A stretch of DNA of 64,000 nt, from NCBI RefSeq assembly GCF_019469265.1, contig NZ_CP048268.1, positions 1,753,001-1,817,000 on the forward strand, in the 5' to 3' direction. The position numbers and the translations under genes were made by a program. The notes under the pieces were generated by a model, which did not search any database, was not told the DNA's origin, and worked only from the letters and a program-made list of their open reading frames with translations. Positions 39,998-46,078 of this stretch are shown piece by piece (positions within the stretch are counted from its first letter, which is position 1; every line of letters begins with the position of its first letter). This DNA comes from Lactobacillus panisapium. Lineage in GTDB: Bacteria > Bacillota > Bacilli > Lactobacillales > Lactobacillaceae.

Positions 39998-40030
39998 TGA
40001 TAAACCTCTTTACTCTCTTTTTTGAATTAG

Positions 40031-41275
40031 TTATAAATCTTCACGCCATAATGGTTGTGACATACAACGAGGGCCGCCACGACCGCGTGATAATTCGCTT
40101 GAAATAACTTCGTGAACCAGAATGTCATGCTTTCTCAGCATTTCGTTGCTGACATAATTACGGTTGTAGGTAACTACTTCACCCGGAGCAATTGTCAGCG
40201 TGTTTGAACCGTCATTCCATTGCTCACGCGGAGCCACAATGTCATCACCGTTACCAGTTAAAATCAGATCTAGTTCTGATAAATGCAAAACTTGTTTCAG
40301 AGTTTCGCCCAAGTCGGTGTGATGTTCCATTCTTACTTCACCGTTATCACCAGGTGTCAAAACAAAAATATTCATTTTGCCAGCTTCGTCCATGATGCCT
40401 GGGAAAACAGTAAATTGATCTGTGTTAACCATCGTGAAGACCGTATCTAGGTGCATCATTGCATGATTATGTGGAATCTCAATTGCCACTACGGTATCGA
40501 AGTGACTATCTTTATTGGTAAAGAGTTCTTTAGCTAAGCCTTCTACTGACTTAGATGAGGTCCGTTGGGAAACACCAATAGCCAAAACATGGTCGTTCAA
40601 GACTAGTTCGTCCCCACCTTCAATTCTAGTGGTGTGATTACGACTACGCCAAATATCTACTTTGCCAGCAAAGCGAGGATGATATTTCATCACAAATTCG
40701 GTAAACAATGATTCAGGGCGCCGAGCAGCAAATGTCATGCGGTTAATAGTAATGCCTGAACCAATTGATGCTTGTGGATCACGTGTGAAATATGCATTAG
40801 GCAGTGGATCAAGTAGGAACGGATCGCTAGCGTCGCTACCTGCTAAGTCATGAAGTGATTCGTGTTTAACATCCAAATCAACTTCATTGCGCCGAACACC
40901 GCTGTAAAGCTTTTCAACCATATCTTTAGTTTCTAAATCTGTCAGATATTCATGCAAAACATCATGCGTGGTTCCTGAGCCATAGCCGTGTTCGTCAAGA
41001 TACTGTTCTAAGAACTTTTCTTTAATATCGTCATCTTCTGAGAGCGCCTCAACTGCAAGGTCATCAATATATAATGTTTCCACACCATTTTTTCTTAATG
41101 TTTCAGCAAAATAGTCATGCTCTTTCTGAGCGATTTTTAAAAAAGGAATATCGTCAAACAAAAGCCGTTCCATCGTATCTGGTGTAATATTTTCAACTTC
41201 TGCACCAGGTCTTTTTAGTAAAACCGTCTTCAATTTACCGATTTCCGAATTAACATTAATTGCCGGATTATCCAT
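40031..41275 (-). CDS. arcA: Arginine deiminase
   Basis: A 414-residue guanidino hydrolase that turns arginine into citrulline and ammonia. [25 protein letters not shown] and [16 protein letters not shown] hold the catalytic Asp, Glu and His. The nucleophile Cys is in [12 protein letters not shown] near the C-terminus. AAAGGAG precedes the ATG. First gene of the arc operon. The ammonia raises pH and the carbamoyl phosphate feeds ATP synthesis via ArcC. Confidence 0.97.
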
Positions 41276-41310
41276 AATTGCTTCTCCTTTGTAAAGTAAT
41301 GTAAAATCAT

Positions 41311-41324
41311 AAAAAGCGCTTTCA
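41311..41324 (-). promoter_or_regulatory. cre-like site upstream of arcA
   Basis: TGAAAGCGCTTTTT on the minus strand, 36-49 bp before the arcA start. It has a strong central AAGCGCTT with the last bases off consensus. It suggests CcpA control of arginine catabolism, as known in several lactic acid bacteria. Confidence 0.5.
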
Positions 41325-41389
41325 TTAATTTACGATTTAATTATCACAAAAAGCATTTATTGTTTAAACGGTGTTTTAGATAGACTTTT

Positions 41390-41405
41390 TTATCCAATTG
41401 GATAA
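41390..41405. promoter_or_regulatory. 16-bp perfect palindrome upstream of arcA
   Basis: TTATCCAATTGGATAA is fully self-complementary and lies about 115-130 bp before the arcA start, between it and the terminator of the first peptide gene. It does not resemble an ARG box. Possible operator for the PucR/CdaR-type regulator. Confidence 0.4.
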
Positions 41406-41423
41406 ATACATAAAAGCAGTGCA

Positions 41424-41462
41424 CAAAAAAACATCCTCAATCTAAACGATTGAGGATGCTTT
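41424..41462 (-). terminator. Terminator of peptide gene 1 (unit B')
   Basis: Arms CATCCTCAATC and GATTGAGGATG with a 5-base loop, then seven T on the minus strand. Confidence 0.85.
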
Positions 41463-41515
41463 TTGGGGAAGAATGATTTAAATAACTATCTTTGCTAAGT
41501 TCTAGCTAAATATAT
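41461..41515 (-). other. Conserved 3' element, B-type copy 1
   Basis: Lies between peptide 1 and its terminator. Matches 42001-42054 over about 54 bases with one substitution and one 1-base indel. The part next to the terminator (TTCTTCCCC on the minus strand) is shared by three units; unit A' varies it to TTCTTCTC. Confidence 0.75.
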
Positions 41516-41588
41516 GACGACTTAGCAACTAATTTCTTAGAAAGTTAGCCACTTGTTCGTCTTTAAGTTGAAATATTAATTTATGTTT

Positions 41589-41633
41589 TTATGGCTCAGT
41601 TACAATAACAACCAATGTTCTTAAAAAGTCCAT
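41589..41633 (-). CDS. Leaderless 14-residue peptide 1 (unit B')
   Basis: ATG at 41631-41633, TAA at 41589-41591. The product is MDFLRTLVVIVTEP. AAAGGAG lies about 7 bases before the ATG. It has no signal or GG leader. It begins M-D/S-F-L-R-T like peptide 3 and ends in a hydrophobic run plus T-E. It has its own upstream palindrome (41700-41715), 3' element and terminator, as the other three units do, and this repetition is the main evidence that so short an ORF is real. It may be a signalling peptide sensed by the Rgg protein; a toxin-like or membrane-active role is also possible. Confidence 0.7.
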   Translation of the reverse strand: MDFLRTLVVIVTEP

Positions 41634-41699
41634 TTTTTCTCTCCTTTACTTGTATTTGCATAGTACATCTTAATACTACTGAAATTTCTTTCCATTATT

Positions 41700-41715
41700 T
41701 TGTCATATTTGAAAA
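41700..41715. promoter_or_regulatory. Palindromic box upstream of peptide 1
   Basis: TTGTCATATTTGAAAA, inverted arms around TATT, 67-82 bp before the ATG. A putative -10 (TACTAT) starts 37 bases further down. No good -35 is seen, which suits an activator-dependent promoter. Confidence 0.65.
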
Positions 41716-41725
41716 ATAATTAAGA

Positions 41726-41764
41726 CTAAAAAATACTCTTAATCGAATGATCAAGAGTATTTTG
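41726..41764 (-). terminator. Terminator of peptide gene 2 (unit A')
   Basis: Stem AATACTCTTGAT with ATTAAGAGTATT, then six T on the minus strand. Confidence 0.8.
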
Positions 41765-41794
41765 AGAAGAATGATTAAATAACTTTAATTTGCT

Positions 41795-41836
41795 TTAAGC
41801 AGGGAATACAACAACCATGTCTCTTAATAAATCCAT
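41795..41836 (-). CDS. Leaderless 13-residue peptide 2 (unit A')
   Basis: ATG at 41834-41836, TAA at 41795-41797. The product is MDLLRDMVVVFPA. AAAGGAG lies about 8 bases upstream. The opening MDLLRD is identical to peptide 4, placing both in an A class. Palindrome at 41910-41925, -10-like TATTTATAA, and a short 3' element plus terminator complete the unit. No secretion signal is present. The same alternatives as for peptide 1 apply. Confidence 0.7.
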   Translation of the reverse strand: MDLLRDMVVVFPA

Positions 41837-41909
41837 AATTTTTCTCCTTTACTAATCATTTTATGCTTATAAATATATCTTAGTCTTACTGTAACTTTTT
41901 TCTATTATT

Positions 41910-41925
41910 ATTTCATATTTGACAA
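41910..41925. promoter_or_regulatory. Palindromic box upstream of peptide 2
   Basis: ATTTCATATTTGACAA, 74-89 bp before the ATG, with the same core TCATATTTGA as the other three boxes and a -10-like sequence at the same 37-base distance. Confidence 0.65.
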
Positions 41926-41966
41926 TTATATTTTGACATAAAACTAGTTATATATTTTTAACATTA

Positions 41967-42004
41967 AATAAAAAAACTCCTAGTCAATAACTAAGAGTTT
42001 TTTT
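41967..42004 (-). terminator. Terminator of peptide gene 3 (unit B)
   Basis: Arms AAACTCTTAGT and ACTAGGAGTTT with a 5-base loop, followed by T on the minus strand. Confidence 0.8.
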
Positions 42005-42054
42005 GGGGAAGAATGATTGAATAACTATCTTTGCTAAGTTCTAGCTAAATATAT
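42001..42054 (-). other. Conserved 3' element, B-type copy 2
   Basis: Near-identical to 41461-41515. Placed between peptide 3 and its terminator. Confidence 0.75.
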
Positions 42055-42088
42055 TACATTTAATTAAAAATTAAATGTAACACATGAA

Positions 42089-42130
42089 TTAATCAGTAAT
42101 AATAATTGCTACAGTTCTTAAAAAACTCAT
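42089..42130 (-). CDS. Leaderless 13-residue peptide 3 (unit B)
   Basis: ATG at 42128-42130, TAA at 42089-42091. The product is MSFLRTVAIIITD. AAAGGAGG lies about 6 bases upstream. It resembles peptide 1 (FLRT opening, aliphatic run, T-D or T-E end), and both share the long 3' element. Palindrome at 42201-42216. Leaderless and hydrophobic. Confidence 0.7.
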   Translation of the reverse strand: MSFLRTVAIIITD

Positions 42131-42200
42131 ATTTTCCTCCTTTGTTTAACTCTCATTGTTTATACATATATTAGTCTAATCATGTTTTTTCACTATCTAT

Positions 42201-42216
42201 TTTTCATATTTGAAAA
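42201..42216. promoter_or_regulatory. Palindromic box upstream of peptide 3
   Basis: TTTTCA-TATT-TGAAAA is a perfect inverted repeat, 71-86 bp before the ATG. It is the most symmetrical of the four boxes and fits binding by a dimeric regulator. Confidence 0.7.
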
Positions 42217-42263
42217 TTATTTTTCTATAAAACAGATTATGCATATCAGATAGATTCAGATTA

Positions 42264-42300
42264 AATAAAAAACACCTAGTTAATAACTAAGTGTTTTTTG
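42264..42300 (-). terminator. Terminator of peptide gene 4 (unit A)
   Basis: Arms AACACTTAGTT and AACTAGGTGTT with a 3-base loop, then six T on the minus strand. Confidence 0.85.
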
Positions 42301-42378
42301 GGGAAGAATGATTGAATAACTTTTACTAAAGTTAAATTTGGCAAATCTTAAAAATTTGCTTCTAAGTTTTTAGATTAA

Positions 42379-42432
42379 TTAGAACTTGTTTGATCTAAGG
42401 ACAACAACAATTAAATCTCTTAATAAGTCCAT
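42379..42432 (-). CDS. Leaderless 17-residue peptide 4 (unit A)
   Basis: ATG at 42430-42432, TAA at 42379-42381. The product is MDLLRDLIVVVLRSNKF. AAAGGAGG lies about 7 bases upstream. MDLLRD is shared with peptide 2; a basic tail RSNKF follows the aliphatic core and is unique to this copy. First peptide gene downstream of the Rgg regulator; its palindrome begins 5 bp from the regulator gene's end. Confidence 0.7.
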   Translation of the reverse strand: MDLLRDLIVVVLRSNKF

Positions 42433-42501
42433 GCTTTTGCCTCCTTTTTCTATACTTTTATCCAATTAATAATACCTCTTTTACTATTTAAAATAATTGT
42501 T

Positions 42502-42517
42502 TTGTCATATTTGAAAA
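42502..42517. promoter_or_regulatory. Palindromic box upstream of peptide 4
   Basis: TTGTCATATTTGAAAA, identical to the box of peptide 1, 70-85 bp before the ATG and 6 bp past the regulator stop codon. The spacing to the nearest -10-like sequence (TATTAT) differs from the other three units. Confidence 0.65.
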
Positions 42518-42522
42518 CGAAT

Positions 42523-43368
42523 TTATGGTTTATTATATTTATCCACCATTTTGTTAACAAATGTTCCATATCCTGCTCTGGTAAATAAATTTCTAATTAA
42601 CTTCACATCATCAAATTTTCCTTTAATTAGGCTTTCGTAATATTCAACTAATATCTTAGTGAACGCTAATTCGACGGTATTAGGTAACGCTTTTAGATAT
42701 TTTATCGCTTTAACACATAGATTAGCTTTACCATTTTCGAAACACCAATTGATAAAATTCGTCATTGCAGCACTTATAGCTAATAGCAGCTTACCTTCAA
42801 TTTTATCAACATCTTTATATCTTCTGATAATACTGCTAATTAAAAATGAGGCTTCATCAAAACTATATACTCTTATTGTATTAGCAATCATAGCTATCCT
42901 AATATATTCGTTTTCATCAGTATCTTCTTGAAAAATAATCTTTTTTATTTCCCTTTTTTCTTTTTCATTAAGCTTTCTTAAAGCATCCTCATCATGTGTG
43001 TTAGCAATTAACTTAGTAAGCAAAATTTCTGATTTGACAAACGGAGTCCTAGGTTTAATATTTTCTATTTCGCTAATTATATTATTTATCTCAGTATCAT
43101 CATCTACATTGGCTGCCTTTACGAATTTTCTTAATAGAATGTTTACCCTTTTGTTGTTGGCATCTTCTTTAGATATGCCTGAAAAGAACTCTTGAAAGCT
43201 AATATTATGTTTCTGTAAAATTTCGATTAATTCTTCCGCACCGATATCGTGATACCCGCGCTCAACTTTTGAATAAAAAGAAACCGAAATTACTCCCGCG
43301 GCCATTTCTGTTTGAGTAAGACCCAAGTCATGCCGTAGCTGCTTCAATTTACTCCCAATATATCTCAT
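42523..43368 (-). CDS. Rgg/RRNPP-family peptide-sensing transcriptional regulator
   Basis: A 281-residue protein with an N-terminal XRE-type HTH (residues 5-60: LKQLRHDLGLTQTEMAAGVI, SVSFYSKVERG, IGAEELIEILQKHNISFQEF) and an all-helical C-terminal region of about 215 residues, the size and layout of Rgg/MutR proteins with a TPR-like peptide pocket. Family members (RopB, Rgg2/3, ComR) bind short imported peptides in the cytoplasm and then activate or repress nearby promoters, often those of the peptide genes. Four tiny peptide genes with matching palindromes lie directly downstream. The peptides have no leader, which recalls the leaderless SIP peptide sensed by RopB in Streptococcus pyogenes. 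Confidence 0.85.
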   Translation of the reverse strand: MRYIGSKLKQLRHDLGLTQTEMAAGVISVSFYSKVERGYHDIGAEELIEILQKHNISFQEFFSGISKEDANNKRVNILLRKFVKAANVDDDTEINNIISEIENIKPRTPFVKSEILLTKLIANTHDEDALRKLNEKEKREIKKIIFQEDTDENEYIRIAMIANTIRVYSFDEASFLISSIIRRYKDVDKIEGKLLLAISAAMTNFINWCFENGKANLCVKAIKYLKALPNTVELAFTKILVEYYESLIKGKFDDVKLIRNLFTRAGYGTFVNKMVDKYNKP

Positions 43369-43390
43369 TTTACCAATCCCTTTTTATAGT

Positions 43391-43431
43391 TTCATATAGA
43401 TAATTATGAACATTTAGCTTAAAATATTCAA
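43391..43431 (-). promoter_or_regulatory. Promoter and inverted repeat of the Rgg-type gene
   Basis: -35 TTGAAT (43426-43431), 17-bp spacer, -10 CATAAT (43403-43408). An inverted repeat TTCATA-N8-TATGAA (43391-43410) covers the -10 and predicted start. Its TTCATAT half resembles the half site of the peptide-gene boxes, suggesting autoregulation. Confidence 0.5.
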
Positions 43432-43478
43432 AATTATTATTTTTTTCTAATGGCTTTGTTTGTTTTAATTATCAAAAA

Positions 43479-43508
43479 TTAACCGTAATCCCCTAAGTTT
43501 GCTATAAT
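43479..43508 (+). promoter_or_regulatory. Promoter of the HD-domain gene
   Basis: Extended -10 TGCTATAAT (TATAAT at 43503-43508) with a weak -35 TTAACC at 43479-43484, 18-bp spacer. Confidence 0.6.
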
Positions 43509-43566
43509 CAGGGTAAGTAGTAGATTTTTTCAATAGTAACTGAAATTAAATTTTTGAGGAATTTAT

Positions 43567-44934
43567 ATGCCTAAATTTCAAAGCAAAAAATTAGCTAAGG
43601 AAGTCGTCTTACGCGACCCCGTTCACGATTACATTCATATTGAGGATCAAGTAATCCTAGACATTTTAAAAACTAAAGAGTTTCAACGAATGAGACGGAT
43701 TAAACAGTTGGGACCATTAGCCTACGTTTTTCCCGGCGCTACTCATACACGTTTCGAGCATAACCTAGGAGTCTATGAATTAACCCGCAAAATCTGCAAC
43801 ATCTTTGCTACCAAGTATCCTTCACGAGTTCCCGGCGACGGGCTATGGGATGATAATAACCGCTTATTAGTCGAGTGCGCGGGATTATTGCATGACATCG
43901 GTCATGGACCATATTCCCATACTTTTGAGCATCTTTTTGGCACGGACCACGAAAAGATTGGGCAAAAGATTATTACTGACTCTAGTACTGAAATCAATCA
44001 GGTATTGCGCAAAGTCGCACCTAATTTTCCCGATCTAGTTGCTAGTGTTATTGCCAAAACTTACCCTAACCCACAAGTCGTTAAAATGATCTCTAGCCAA
44101 GCCGATGCTGATCGGATGGATTATTTAAAGCGTGACGCCTATTTCACCGGTGTCACTTACGGCGAATTTGATCTTTCACGAATTTTGCAAGAAATCAGAC
44201 CGTACAGTGGAGGAATTTGCTTCACAATGGCTGGAATGCACGCAGTTGAAGACTATATTGTCTCGCGTTATCAGATGTATCAGCAAGTCTACTTTCATCG
44301 CGTTGGCAGATCAATGGAAGTAATTCTGCAACATCTGCTGGAACGAGCCAAAATGGTTTACCAACAAGGGACATTGCGGGTGACGCCTAATCTAGCCAAC
44401 TTTTTAGCCGGAAACTGGACCCTCGAAGATTATCTTAAACTAGACGATGGCGTTATGGAAAGTAACTTTTTAGAATGGACCCAGGCTAGCGACCCAATCT
44501 TAGCTGACTTAGCAAGTAGCTACTTATTCAGAAAGCCTCTGGAAAGTGTCTGCATTGATGAAGAAACCAAAAACTTGCTTCCTAAACTGAAGGATTTGAT
44601 CAAGCAAGCAGGATTTGATCCACTTTATTATACCGACACTAATTCTGCCTTTGATGAGCCTTATGATGCATATAAGCCGAGCGGTAAAAATGCCAACAGC
44701 CAAATTGAAATTATGCAAAGCGACGGACAGCTGATCGAGTTGTCACAATTAAGTCCATTGGTTCGTGCACTTAATGGCACACTGCAAGGAGATGAGCGTT
44801 TCTTCTTCCCTAAAATTATGATGTCAAACAGTGCTGAACCACAGATTTTTGATCCACTTTACCAGCAATTTCAGCGCTACGTTAAAAACGGCAAATTGCG
44901 CTATTTGAGAAGACCCAAAAATAGTAAAAAATAA
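43567..44934 (+). CDS. HD-domain phosphohydrolase (YwfO-like, dNTPase family)
   Basis: A 455-residue metal-dependent phosphohydrolase. The HD motif residues are in HTRFEHNLGVYELTRK, the double His-Asp in GLLHDIGHGPYSHTFEH, and the distal Asp in SSQADADRMDYLKRDA. Related proteins (YwfO, EF1143) are dNTP triphosphohydrolases that may adjust nucleotide pools. The C-terminal part from about 320 is family-specific. TGAGGA precedes the ATG. Monocistronic with a strong terminator. Confidence 0.9.
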   Translation: MPKFQSKKLAKEVVLRDPVHDYIHIEDQVILDILKTKEFQRMRRIKQLGPLAYVFPGATHTRFEHNLGVYELTRKICNIFATKYPSRVPGDGLWDDNNRLLVECAGLLHDIGHGPYSHTFEHLFGTDHEKIGQKIITDSSTEINQVLRKVAPNFPDLVASVIAKTYPNPQVVKMISSQADADRMDYLKRDAYFTGVTYGEFDLSRILQEIRPYSGGICFTMAGMHAVEDYIVSRYQMYQQVYFHRVGRSMEVILQHLLERAKMVYQQGTLRVTPNLANFLAGNWTLEDYLKLDDGVMESNFLEWTQASDPILADLASSYLFRKPLESVCIDEETKNLLPKLKDLIKQAGFDPLYYTDTNSAFDEPYDAYKPSGKNANSQIEIMQSDGQLIELSQLSPLVRALNGTLQGDERFFFPKIMMSNSAEPQIFDPLYQQFQRYVKNGKLRYLRRPKNSKK

Positions 44935-44966
44935 AAAAATGAGTTCCGAATAGAACTCATTTTTTG
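44932..44966. terminator. Bidirectional terminator between HD gene and SIS gene
   Basis: Arms ATGAGTTC and GAACTCAT with a 6-base loop, A-run before and T-run after, between convergent genes. Confidence 0.85.
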
Positions 44967-44980
44967 ATAGATTATTTTAT

Positions 44981-46078
44981 TTAGACATTCATGTGCCCAG
45001 AAATGGAAGTATCAGTTACCGGACTAACACTAGTATCAATTCCAACTTTCTCAGATAACTTAGCAGCCAGAATTTGAAAAGGCACGATGTAGAAAATTGG
45101 TGAAAGCAGTTCAGAAGTCTTTACACTCAATTTCAAATCTTTTTCGGTTGCCTTAAATTGCTCTCCAGAAATTATGAAAACATGCTTAGTATAGGCACGA
45201 CGATAATAAGCACTTATCTCTTGCAACCGTTCAAACTCAGGCCCAAGATTGCCACCAATCAAGAAAATATAATTGTCTTGATTATAAGCACGCAGCGGTC
45301 CATGAAGCTGCTCTTCTTGTTCATAAGCCGTCGTTGGGCGTCCAAATGTTTCAAAAAATTTTAGCCTAGCTTCTAAAGCTGTCGGCAAATTAACGCCATA
45401 GCCAGCAATAGAGGCCTTTTGCATGTCAACTAACTCCGCTTGTTGCTTTTCATACCACTCAAGGCTTTCCTTAACTACGATTGGAAAATCATTGACTAGC
45501 TGCTGAGCTTGCGCAATTAAATTATCATACTTAGCTTTACCAATTTGCTCTGATTGATAAGCAATTTCAACAGCTAACAAATAGAACTGCAGCAAAGTTT
45601 CAGTATAACCACGTGTTTCCGGCCCAACCTGTTCTTCTTCACAAACCAAATGAACATAATGATCAGCAATTTTCGTAATGGCTGATCCCAGTTGCTCAGT
45701 AATACCTAACGTAGCATATCCGCACTGCTGTGCATGTCGCAGTGCATCACAAGTAGAAATACTATCCCCATGTTGTGATAAGCCAACCACTAGAATCTGA
45801 TCATTTCTAAAATTACTGCTAGGATTAATGTTCTCCGAATAAGTAAAAACGGTTGGTTCTACTGCAACGCCTTCAACATGTAAAAGTTTAACAAACATAT
45901 TGCGGATTACTCTCATGGCATTGTAAGAAGTACCTGATCCCGTAAAAATAACTTTCTTAAAATTCTTTTTTAGCCAAAAAGCAATCAGCTCCTGCCCATA
46001 TTCATCCCTTTCGGCAATTGCTCGTTGCAAAACTCGTGCAGTGTCTTCAATATGTCCCATCATTGATAATTTTGTCAT
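44981..46078 (-). CDS. SIS-domain sugar-phosphate enzyme (GlmS isomerase-like)
   Basis: A 365-residue protein with two SIS domains, as in the isomerase half of GlmS. SIS1 (about 30-170) contains VIFTGSGTSYNAMRVIRN and VVGLSQHGDSISTCDAL; SIS2 (about 200-345) contains AIAGYGVN-type ASIAGYGVNLPTALEA and QEEQLHGPLRAYNQDN. The glutaminase domain is absent. Homologues in PTS operons act as deglycases or aldose-ketose isomerases on amino or glycated sugar phosphates. It is the last gene of the IIA-IIB-IIC-IID operon, 2 bp after a small anchored protein. The exact substrate is unknown. Confidence 0.8.
   Translation of the reverse strand: MTKLSMMGHIEDTARVLQRAIAERDEYGQELIAFWLKKNFKKVIFTGSGTSYNAMRVIRNMFVKLLHVEGVAVEPTVFTYSENINPSSNFRNDQILVVGLSQHGDSISTCDALRHAQQCGYATLGITEQLGSAITKIADHYVHLVCEEEQVGPETRGYTETLLQFYLLAVEIAYQSEQIGKAKYDNLIAQAQQLVNDFPIVVKESLEWYEKQQAELVDMQKASIAGYGVNLPTALEARLKFFETFGRPTTAYEQEEQLHGPLRAYNQDNYIFLIGGNLGPEFERLQEISAYYRRAYTKHVFIISGEQFKATEKDLKLSVKTSELLSPIFYIVPFQILAAKLSEKVGIDTSVSPVTDTSISGHMNV

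Follow-up and report, generated by a model that had tools for sequence, protein, structure and literature searches.

We analysed a 64,000-nucleotide window of the Lactobacillus panisapium genome (contig NZ_CP048268.1, positions 1,753,001 to 1,817,000), in which the gene for an Rgg-type regulator is followed by four tandem, very short open reading frames (ORFs). The source genome is a single 2.19-Mb contig. Reading the minus strand from 43368 to 41426, we found a 281-residue regulator and then four units, each 196-290 nucleotides (nt) from box to terminator. All four units have the same order: a palindromic box, a -10 element, a ribosome-binding site (RBS), an ORF of 13-17 codons, a 3' element and a hairpin terminator (Table 1). 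The RBS is AAAGGAG or AAGGAGG in every case. The initial annotation had listed an RBS, box, terminator and 3' element for each of four minus-strand ORFs behind an Rgg/RRNPP regulator, and these read as stated: the regulator lies at 43368-42523 and has the Rgg fold, and four terminator hairpins were found in 41250-43500 against 0.4 expected from shuffles. The fourth terminator is listed on the plus strand, yet the minus strand also reads as a hairpin with a T-run.

Between the preceding stop and the ATG of each peptide ORF there are only 4-11 in-frame codons, leaving no room for a leader, as had been claimed. The peptides fall into two types, LLRD (D6) in units 1 and 3 and FLRT (T6) in units 2 and 4. 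From residue 6 on, the peptides of this group resemble the core of short hydrophobic peptides (SHPs), with D, T, N, G or R followed by about five aliphatic residues; this first residue is D in units 1 and 3 and T in units 2 and 4. A scan of 41300-43440 on both strands with loose RBS motifs returned eight further short frames with poorer RBS-like motifs, from which the four peptide ORFs are distinguished by RBS and conservation. Pairwise identity of the units is 75-81% over the whole unit, highest between units 1 and 2, and 56-76% over the first 13 codons. Units 2 and 4 share a 59-nt 3' stretch. This stretch and the two peptide types prompted the idea that an A-B pair had been duplicated to A-B-A-B, to which the whole-unit identities give no support.

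Next, 75 Lactobacillus genomes, the window's own included, were searched for receptor orthologs. We found them in 10 other genomes, with 45-55% identity over residues 1-275 or more of 281, and an eleventh genome (G037) carries a contig-edge fragment with 75% identity over residues 1-56. The ortholog genomes are those of L. apis, L. laiwuensis, L. melliventris, L. kullabergensis, L. huangpiensis, L. helsingborgensis, L. kimbladii, strain W8174 and uncultured Lactobacillus metagenome-assembled genomes (MAGs), species that we take to be the honey-bee Firm-5 group. Several of the species names are tied to honey bees in literature listings. The HD-domain protein adjoining the locus is 91% identical to its L. 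apis counterpart and 87-91% to the others. In all 10 nearly full-length ortholog loci, one short co-directional ORF lies ~50-100 nt past the receptor stop. The peptides are MDLLKTVVIILPDP, MDLLRDVIVVMPQR, MDLLRNVIIILPEP (two genomes), MDLLRNVIIIITDL, MSLALFKPVIIIVTD, MDLVRGLIIIVADE, MDFLRRVIIIIAED and MNLLRGLIIIMPDP (two genomes); an RBS filter gave seven of them (L006, L007, L009, L010, L012, L014 and L015), and for L008, L011 and L013 the peptide was taken from the sequence itself. With the same filter no second such peptide was seen within 1.5 kb on either side. The pattern that had been named beforehand as refuting, frames broken while palindromes and terminators are kept, was not seen, and the peptide frames are intact in 10/10 full-length ortholog loci.

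The peptide frames also carry a coding-like pattern of conservation. Mean pairwise divergence at codon positions 1, 2 and 3 was.43,.125 and.48, compared with.64-.65 in flanking DNA (11 of 12 distinct sequences, L. apis being omitted for its insertion), and BLOSUM residue similarity was 2.83 in frame against.52 and.89 out of frame. Compared among themselves, the window units differ at 27/60, 10/60 and 28/60 sites of codon positions 1, 2 and 3. Because all 10 full-length orthologs have one such ORF in the same place with codon-position conservation, the peptide ORFs are unlikely to be chance frames, and the fixed promoter spacing described below points the same way.

These data bear on the idea that the transcripts are mainly small RNAs, with the C-rich 3' element AUUCUUCCCC ahead of the terminators as their working part and the ORFs incidental or secondary. 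The 3' element (AATCATTCTTCCCC) precedes each terminator and is kept in the four units, diverged in unit 3, while the terminator stems differ; at 0-1 mismatch it occurs in the source genome at units 1, 2 and 4 only, and two mismatches add unit 3 and one unrelated site. However, the ortholog 3' regions examined, 282-285 nt at each of 10 loci, lack any such element, with the ORF retained, the codon-position pattern speaks for coding, and the four Rfam matches in 40000-45000 all fell under their gathering scores, so that we regard a mainly RNA-based role as improbable. The 3' element is a possible C-rich RNA seed.

A toxin or membrane-active role, which the initial annotation had kept as an alternative, would mean that the Rgg regulator controls small membrane-active peptides, type I toxins or bacteriocins. 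The genes are indeed short, hydrophobic and individually terminated, but the aliphatic run is by inspection 5-6 residues, too short for a membrane span, and box and peptide remain with the receptor gene in orthologs. No antisense RNA or immunity gene was recognised, no specific search having been made for either, and inspection and Rfam alone gave no support for such a role, which we judge highly improbable.

The palindromic box TTTTCAAATATGAAAA, with 0-2 mismatches, stands ahead of the peptide in 4/4 window units and 9/10 orthologs, and in the window it starts 82-89 nt ahead of each ATG. We found that a TAnnAT hexamer starts exactly at nt 44 from the first box base in 11/11 units tested (the four window units and seven orthologs; of 14 units, those of W8174 and L. 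kimbladii were omitted as near duplicates and that of L035 as boxless). The best positional mean score of this hexamer was 10.5, compared with 9.5 as the highest of 1000 shuffles. In a generic sigma-70 scan none of the promoter-like pairs listed ended at one of these -10 elements, no search for a -35 element having been made at the matching place. Activator-dependent promoters have this anatomy, the operator here being centred ~47-48 base pairs (bp) upstream of the predicted start, and we infer activation rather than repression. Elsewhere, one-mismatch box-like sites were about as frequent as in a reversed-pattern control (0-3 per strand and genome), and for two-mismatch sites in the source genome the control gave 1 and 2. 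As further targets the other one-mismatch sites were rejected, since 7/8 loci read had no TAnnnT at nt 44 and the remaining one, L209 (TAAAAT), is an isolated case.

The window receptor has the RRNPP(A) architecture, an N-terminal helix-turn-helix (HTH) domain followed by a C-terminal helical domain of the tetratricopeptide-repeat (TPR) type, in the Rgg fold. Among the 10 receptors of one alignment (A1), mean identity was 79% over residues 1-62 and 48% over residues 63-281, suggesting the same box and a diversifying ligand domain. The predicted pocket residues are N163, R166 and N204. N163, present in 10/10 receptors of A1, aligns with Rgg2 N150; N204, present in 30/30 of a second alignment (A2), aligns with Rgg2 N190; and R166 aligns with Rgg2 R153. 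In profile searches RopB was found at E 7e-6 with A2 and was not listed up to E 10 with A1. As to phage, virus and plasmid relatives, none was confirmed in IMG/VR and none was found in phages; five Enterococcus plasmids gave matches of no more than 22-23% identity.

A second set of boxes lies upstream of manA, the gene for a class I mannose-6-phosphate isomerase (TIGR00218, 200.6 bits). This box was present in 12/12 receptor-bearing genomes, the one with the receptor fragment (G037) included; it matches the pattern WTTTCAAATATGAMAA exactly in 11 and with one mismatch in the MAG G062. In the ten receptor genomes measured it stands 54-70 nt upstream of the manA ATG. By comparison, 25/27 receptor-less genomes had no site of <4 mismatches in the 110-130 nt upstream of manA (17/19 and 8/8, the latter comprising nine loci), the 27 being the receptor-less genomes examined in which the manA start was located; manA is present in 71 genomes. 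In genome G052 the manA promoter resembles that of the receptor-bearing clade by eye, yet there is no receptor match at E<=1e-20 and no box. Six receptor-genome sequences were measured, and all have a -10 hexamer (TAAACT or TACACT) at nt 45-46 from the box; three receptor-less genomes have TATACT or TAAACT at about the same distance from the manA start codon. These comparisons suggest that the circuit probably acts on manA too.

We then compared the locus with known systems. For Rgg-type receptors, a class of leaderless peptides has already been published, the leaderless communication peptides (LCPs), which are mostly 8-10 residues long, usually aliphatic or aromatic, and preferably encoded divergently from ropB; longer and charged exceptions are named as well (PMC10518010). 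LCP systems include RopB/SIP of Streptococcus pyogenes, NrpR/NIP of S. salivarius and those of E. malodoratus and L. reuteri (PMC10518010, PMC12186490). The present locus resembles them in that a very short, leaderless ORF behind a strong RBS adjoins the gene for an Rgg-fold receptor, and N163 and N204, which were aligned to Rgg2 only, have a spacing comparable to that of the RopB/NrpR pocket asparagines N152 and N192 (PMC12186490). Unlike typical LCPs, the peptides here have 13-17 residues and charged ends, and their genes are downstream, co-directional and four in number.

The streptococcal Rgg/SHP systems (Rgg2, Rgg3 and Rgg144) share the receptor fold, and by sequence profile they come out among the closest relatives whose ligand is known. 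The core of units 1 and 3, D followed by aliphatics, can be compared with the mature SHPs DIIIIVGG and DILIIVGG (PMC13361665), and the alignment of R166 with Rgg2 R153 is a further likeness. The peptides here differ in having no propeptide leader, a first core residue that is often not acidic and a C-terminal tail. Of the separation from SHPs that had been drawn earlier, the lack of a leader stands, whereas the core from residue 6 is SHP-like (PMC13361665).

More than one pheromone gene for one Rgg-type receptor is known from pneumococcal RtgR with RtgS1 and RtgS2 (PMC7018657). Unlike the peptides here, RtgS peptides are normal propeptides with mature parts one residue apart, and the second copy occupies another place in the locus (PMC7018657). 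Several pheromone variants for one RRNPPA receptor also occur in Rap systems, with two Phr genes or the internal duplications of Phr3T and Phr105 (PMC9765709, PMC11343458), where the products are secreted propeptides with a leader. In mode of action the locus would appear to match RopB/SIP and the other LCPs; its peptide cores and pocket residues are SHP-like, and neither definition fits it fully.

On this evidence, we put at about 0.78 the probability that this is a leaderless-peptide/Rgg autoinduction locus with manA as a further target, expanded to four peptides of two types, each peptide gene with its own promoter. The regulator would be a cytoplasmic Rgg-type receptor and activator that binds the box TTTTCAAATATGAAAA and drives four monocistronic mini-transcripts, each to be translated into one leaderless 13-17-residue peptide. 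The peptides would exit the cell and come back in, probably via oligopeptide permeases, and their SHP-like core would bind the TPR pocket of the receptor, giving autoinduction. Nine OppA-like genes are present in the source genome. By acting at the manA box as well, the receptor would tie mannose-6-phosphate/fructose-6-phosphate exchange to the signal. Where relatives show one peptide gene, this genome would have gone from one to four, of D6 and T6 types; four genes in place of one may give a higher signal dose, or agonists mixed with weaker ligands. The multi-peptide locus with one RRNPP receptor and a box for each peptide gene that the initial annotation had proposed is backed by anatomy and comparison, to which we add that the -10 spacing is fixed, that orthologs have a single copy and that manA has a site too. 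Separately, six of the OppA-like genes (PF00496) lie within an 11-kb stretch, G000:C1:1277676-1288779.

Several observations count against the autoinduction reading. The MDLLR segment before the core is without counterpart in the mature SHPs taken from PMC13361665, and the reading therefore requires trimming or an unusual ligand. The receptor reaches only E 0.02 with the Rgg C-terminal model TIGR01716, which places it outside the survey of PMC10518010 with its filter of E<1e-5; the model matches 8/10 members of A1 at E<=10, the best at 2.4e-9, which means that the filter admits at least one ortholog. Synonymous one-base codon differences do not single out the reading frame (94/219 in frame, 94/236 in frame +1 and 18/241 in frame +2), and synonymous differing codons in the four window units number 7/40, 11/41 and 1/41, respectively. 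Locus L035, a MAG locus in the same genome as L006, has receptor and peptide MDLLKTVVIILPDP with no recognisable box ahead of the peptide; its genome (G062) does have the one-mismatch manA box. The manA box has the opposite orientation, lying on the opposite strand in the ten genomes measured. It also occurs without a detected receptor in G066 and G063, MAGs 54% and 66% complete, and in six further receptor-less genomes the manA start was not located. Finally, common descent confounds the co-occurrence of manA box and receptor, since the genomes with the receptor apparently belong to a single clade; the case of G052 above is a counterweight to this.

Within the autoinduction locus, the peptides need not be equivalent. 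It is possible, if doubtful, that only one or two units, the D6 units 1 and 3, encode true ligands, units 2 and 4 being copies that are neutral or in decay. R166 is found in only two of the 10 A1 receptors, those of the window and of L. helsingborgensis (L007), whose peptide carries D6, and the seven Q166 receptors and one E166 receptor pair with N, T, G, R or, in L. apis, K-P at peptide residue 6. We take Rgg2 R153 to pair with the acidic first residue of SHPs, and by this analogy R166 should favour D6. On the other hand, frame, RBS, box and -10 element are kept in all four units despite their divergence, T6 recurs in the single peptide of L035, and the link between R166 and D6 is post hoc and drawn from few sequences.

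A more speculative proposal, to which we give only tentative credence, is a four-signal code on a single receptor. The D6 pair would be agonists and the T6 pair weaker agonists or antagonists, or signals for the Q166-type receptors of neighbouring species; the receptor itself would switch on all four, and the blend ratio would set autoinduction and manA expression with no leader or maturation protease. Different or opposing effects of the peptide types are plausible because of the D6/T6 split and the precedent of the RtgS types, where type B, a partial agonist, antagonises type A when its dose is high (PMC7018657).

Downstream of the array lies the arc operon, with the arcA start ~310 bp beyond peptide gene 4 and a terminator after each ORF, an arrangement that would also suit leader peptides or attenuators for downstream genes. 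Against this, the downstream genes vary by species (an FAD/FMN-binding protein, an ATP-binding cassette (ABC) transporter and others), and the close ArcA relatives G041 and G074 have a similar arcA upstream region with no peptides there; we consider attenuation extremely improbable. arcA, which has the array upstream of it, was also considered as a target of the receptor and became less likely: the nearest ArcA relatives (G041, G007 with 87% and G074 with 82%) have no receptor match at E<=1e-20. Adjacent genes as a general target were rejected too, because they differ between species and no box was seen ahead of them in the sequence listed, which covered all but the end of the L039 locus and the start of the L040 locus. 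Read-through from a peptide promoter into adjacent genes may occur. Upstream of arcA we also observed a palindrome, TATCCAATTGGATA, and a cre-like sequence, AAAGCGCTTT, at 41380-41410 and 41304-41331 of the window; the array-less G041 and G074 are similar here.

Table 1. Features of the peptide array, its receptor gene and the manA box (window coordinates unless stated otherwise).
Feature	Position	Strand	Remarks
RRNPP regulator (Rgg fold), 281 residues	42523..43368	-	HTH residues ~1-62; TPR-type peptide-binding domain 63-281
Box, unit 1	42502..42517	-	TTTTCAAATATGACAA
-10 element, unit 1	42469..42474	-	TATTAT; nt 44 from box start
Peptide gene 1	42379..42432 (ORF 42432-42379)	-	MDLLRDLIVVVLRSNKF, D6 type
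3' element, unit 1	42294..42321	-	sequence comparison
Terminator, unit 1	42267..42299	-	hairpin
Box, unit 2	42201..42216	-	TTTTCAAATATGAAAA
-10 element, unit 2	42168..42173	-	TAATAT; nt 44 from box start
Peptide gene 2	42089..42130 (ORF 42130-42089)	-	MSFLRTVAIIITD, T6 type
3' element, unit 2	41999..42026	-	sequence comparison
Terminator, unit 2	41970..42004	-	hairpin
Box, unit 3	41910..41925	-	TTGTCAAATATGAAAT, 2 mismatches
-10 element, unit 3	41877..41882	-	TAAGAT; nt 44 from box start
Peptide gene 3	41795..41836 (ORF 41836-41795)	-	MDLLRDMVVVFPA, D6 type
3' element, unit 3	41757..41784	-	diverged, UUCUUCUC
Terminator, unit 3	41730..41763	-	hairpin
Box, unit 4	41700..41715	-	TTTTCAAATATGACAA
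-10 element, unit 4	41667..41672	-	TAAGAT; nt 44 from box start
Peptide gene 4	41589..41633 (ORF 41633-41589)	-	MDFLRTLVVIVTEP, T6 type
3' element, unit 4	41459..41486	-	sequence comparison
Terminator, unit 4	41426..41464	-	stem sequence unlike the other three; between array and arcA
manA box, source genome, outside the window	G000:C1:832876-832891		box search

The leaderless layout may be more widespread in the genus. Other Lactobacillus Rgg paralogs (L005, L118, L094, L105, L111 and L031) have co-directional leaderless candidates 90-105 nt past the receptor stop, namely MFKLLRELILLVSKYC, MVIVVKPTF, MVIEFPILV, MFIPWYPL (two genomes) and MVIIVLPVLPHDFNK; L005 is an Rgg paralog in the source genome itself, with its candidate peptide at 1276-1226. 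These candidates were selected from a scan of 100 unique receptor frames, fragments and orthologs included, that also lists less convincing frames, and presence or absence there is no proof, the strict RBS and hydropathy filter having missed the true L013 peptide. A different group of Rgg paralogs (L173, L174, L175, L176 and L179) lies near GTCAAATATGACA boxes. One such box precedes a 530-residue ORF (from MVYKYY) that is ABC-transporter-like by look, with TATATT at nt 44; another (L173, L174 and L176) precedes an ORF resembling the major facilitator superfamily, 416 residues where whole, with TACTAA one base later.

The leaderless principle itself is already known; the novelty lies in the array of four genes, in the receptor group and in the link to manA. 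Rgg peptides of bee-gut Lactobacillus and tandem leaderless arrays were not found in the open-access literature. If the autoinduction reading is true, this would be, within the open-access literature searched, the first reported tandem array of individually promoted pheromone genes for an Rgg-type receptor. PMC9765709 states that only Rap systems were found to have more than one propeptide gene, a restriction to which the array would be a counter-example. Leaderless peptide signalling would also extend to a separate receptor group in bee-associated lactobacilli. The locus would offer a natural set of four ligands for one receptor, with receptor residue 166 and peptide residue 6 as a testable specificity pair, and the manA site suggests a concrete output of the signal, sugar-phosphate metabolism.

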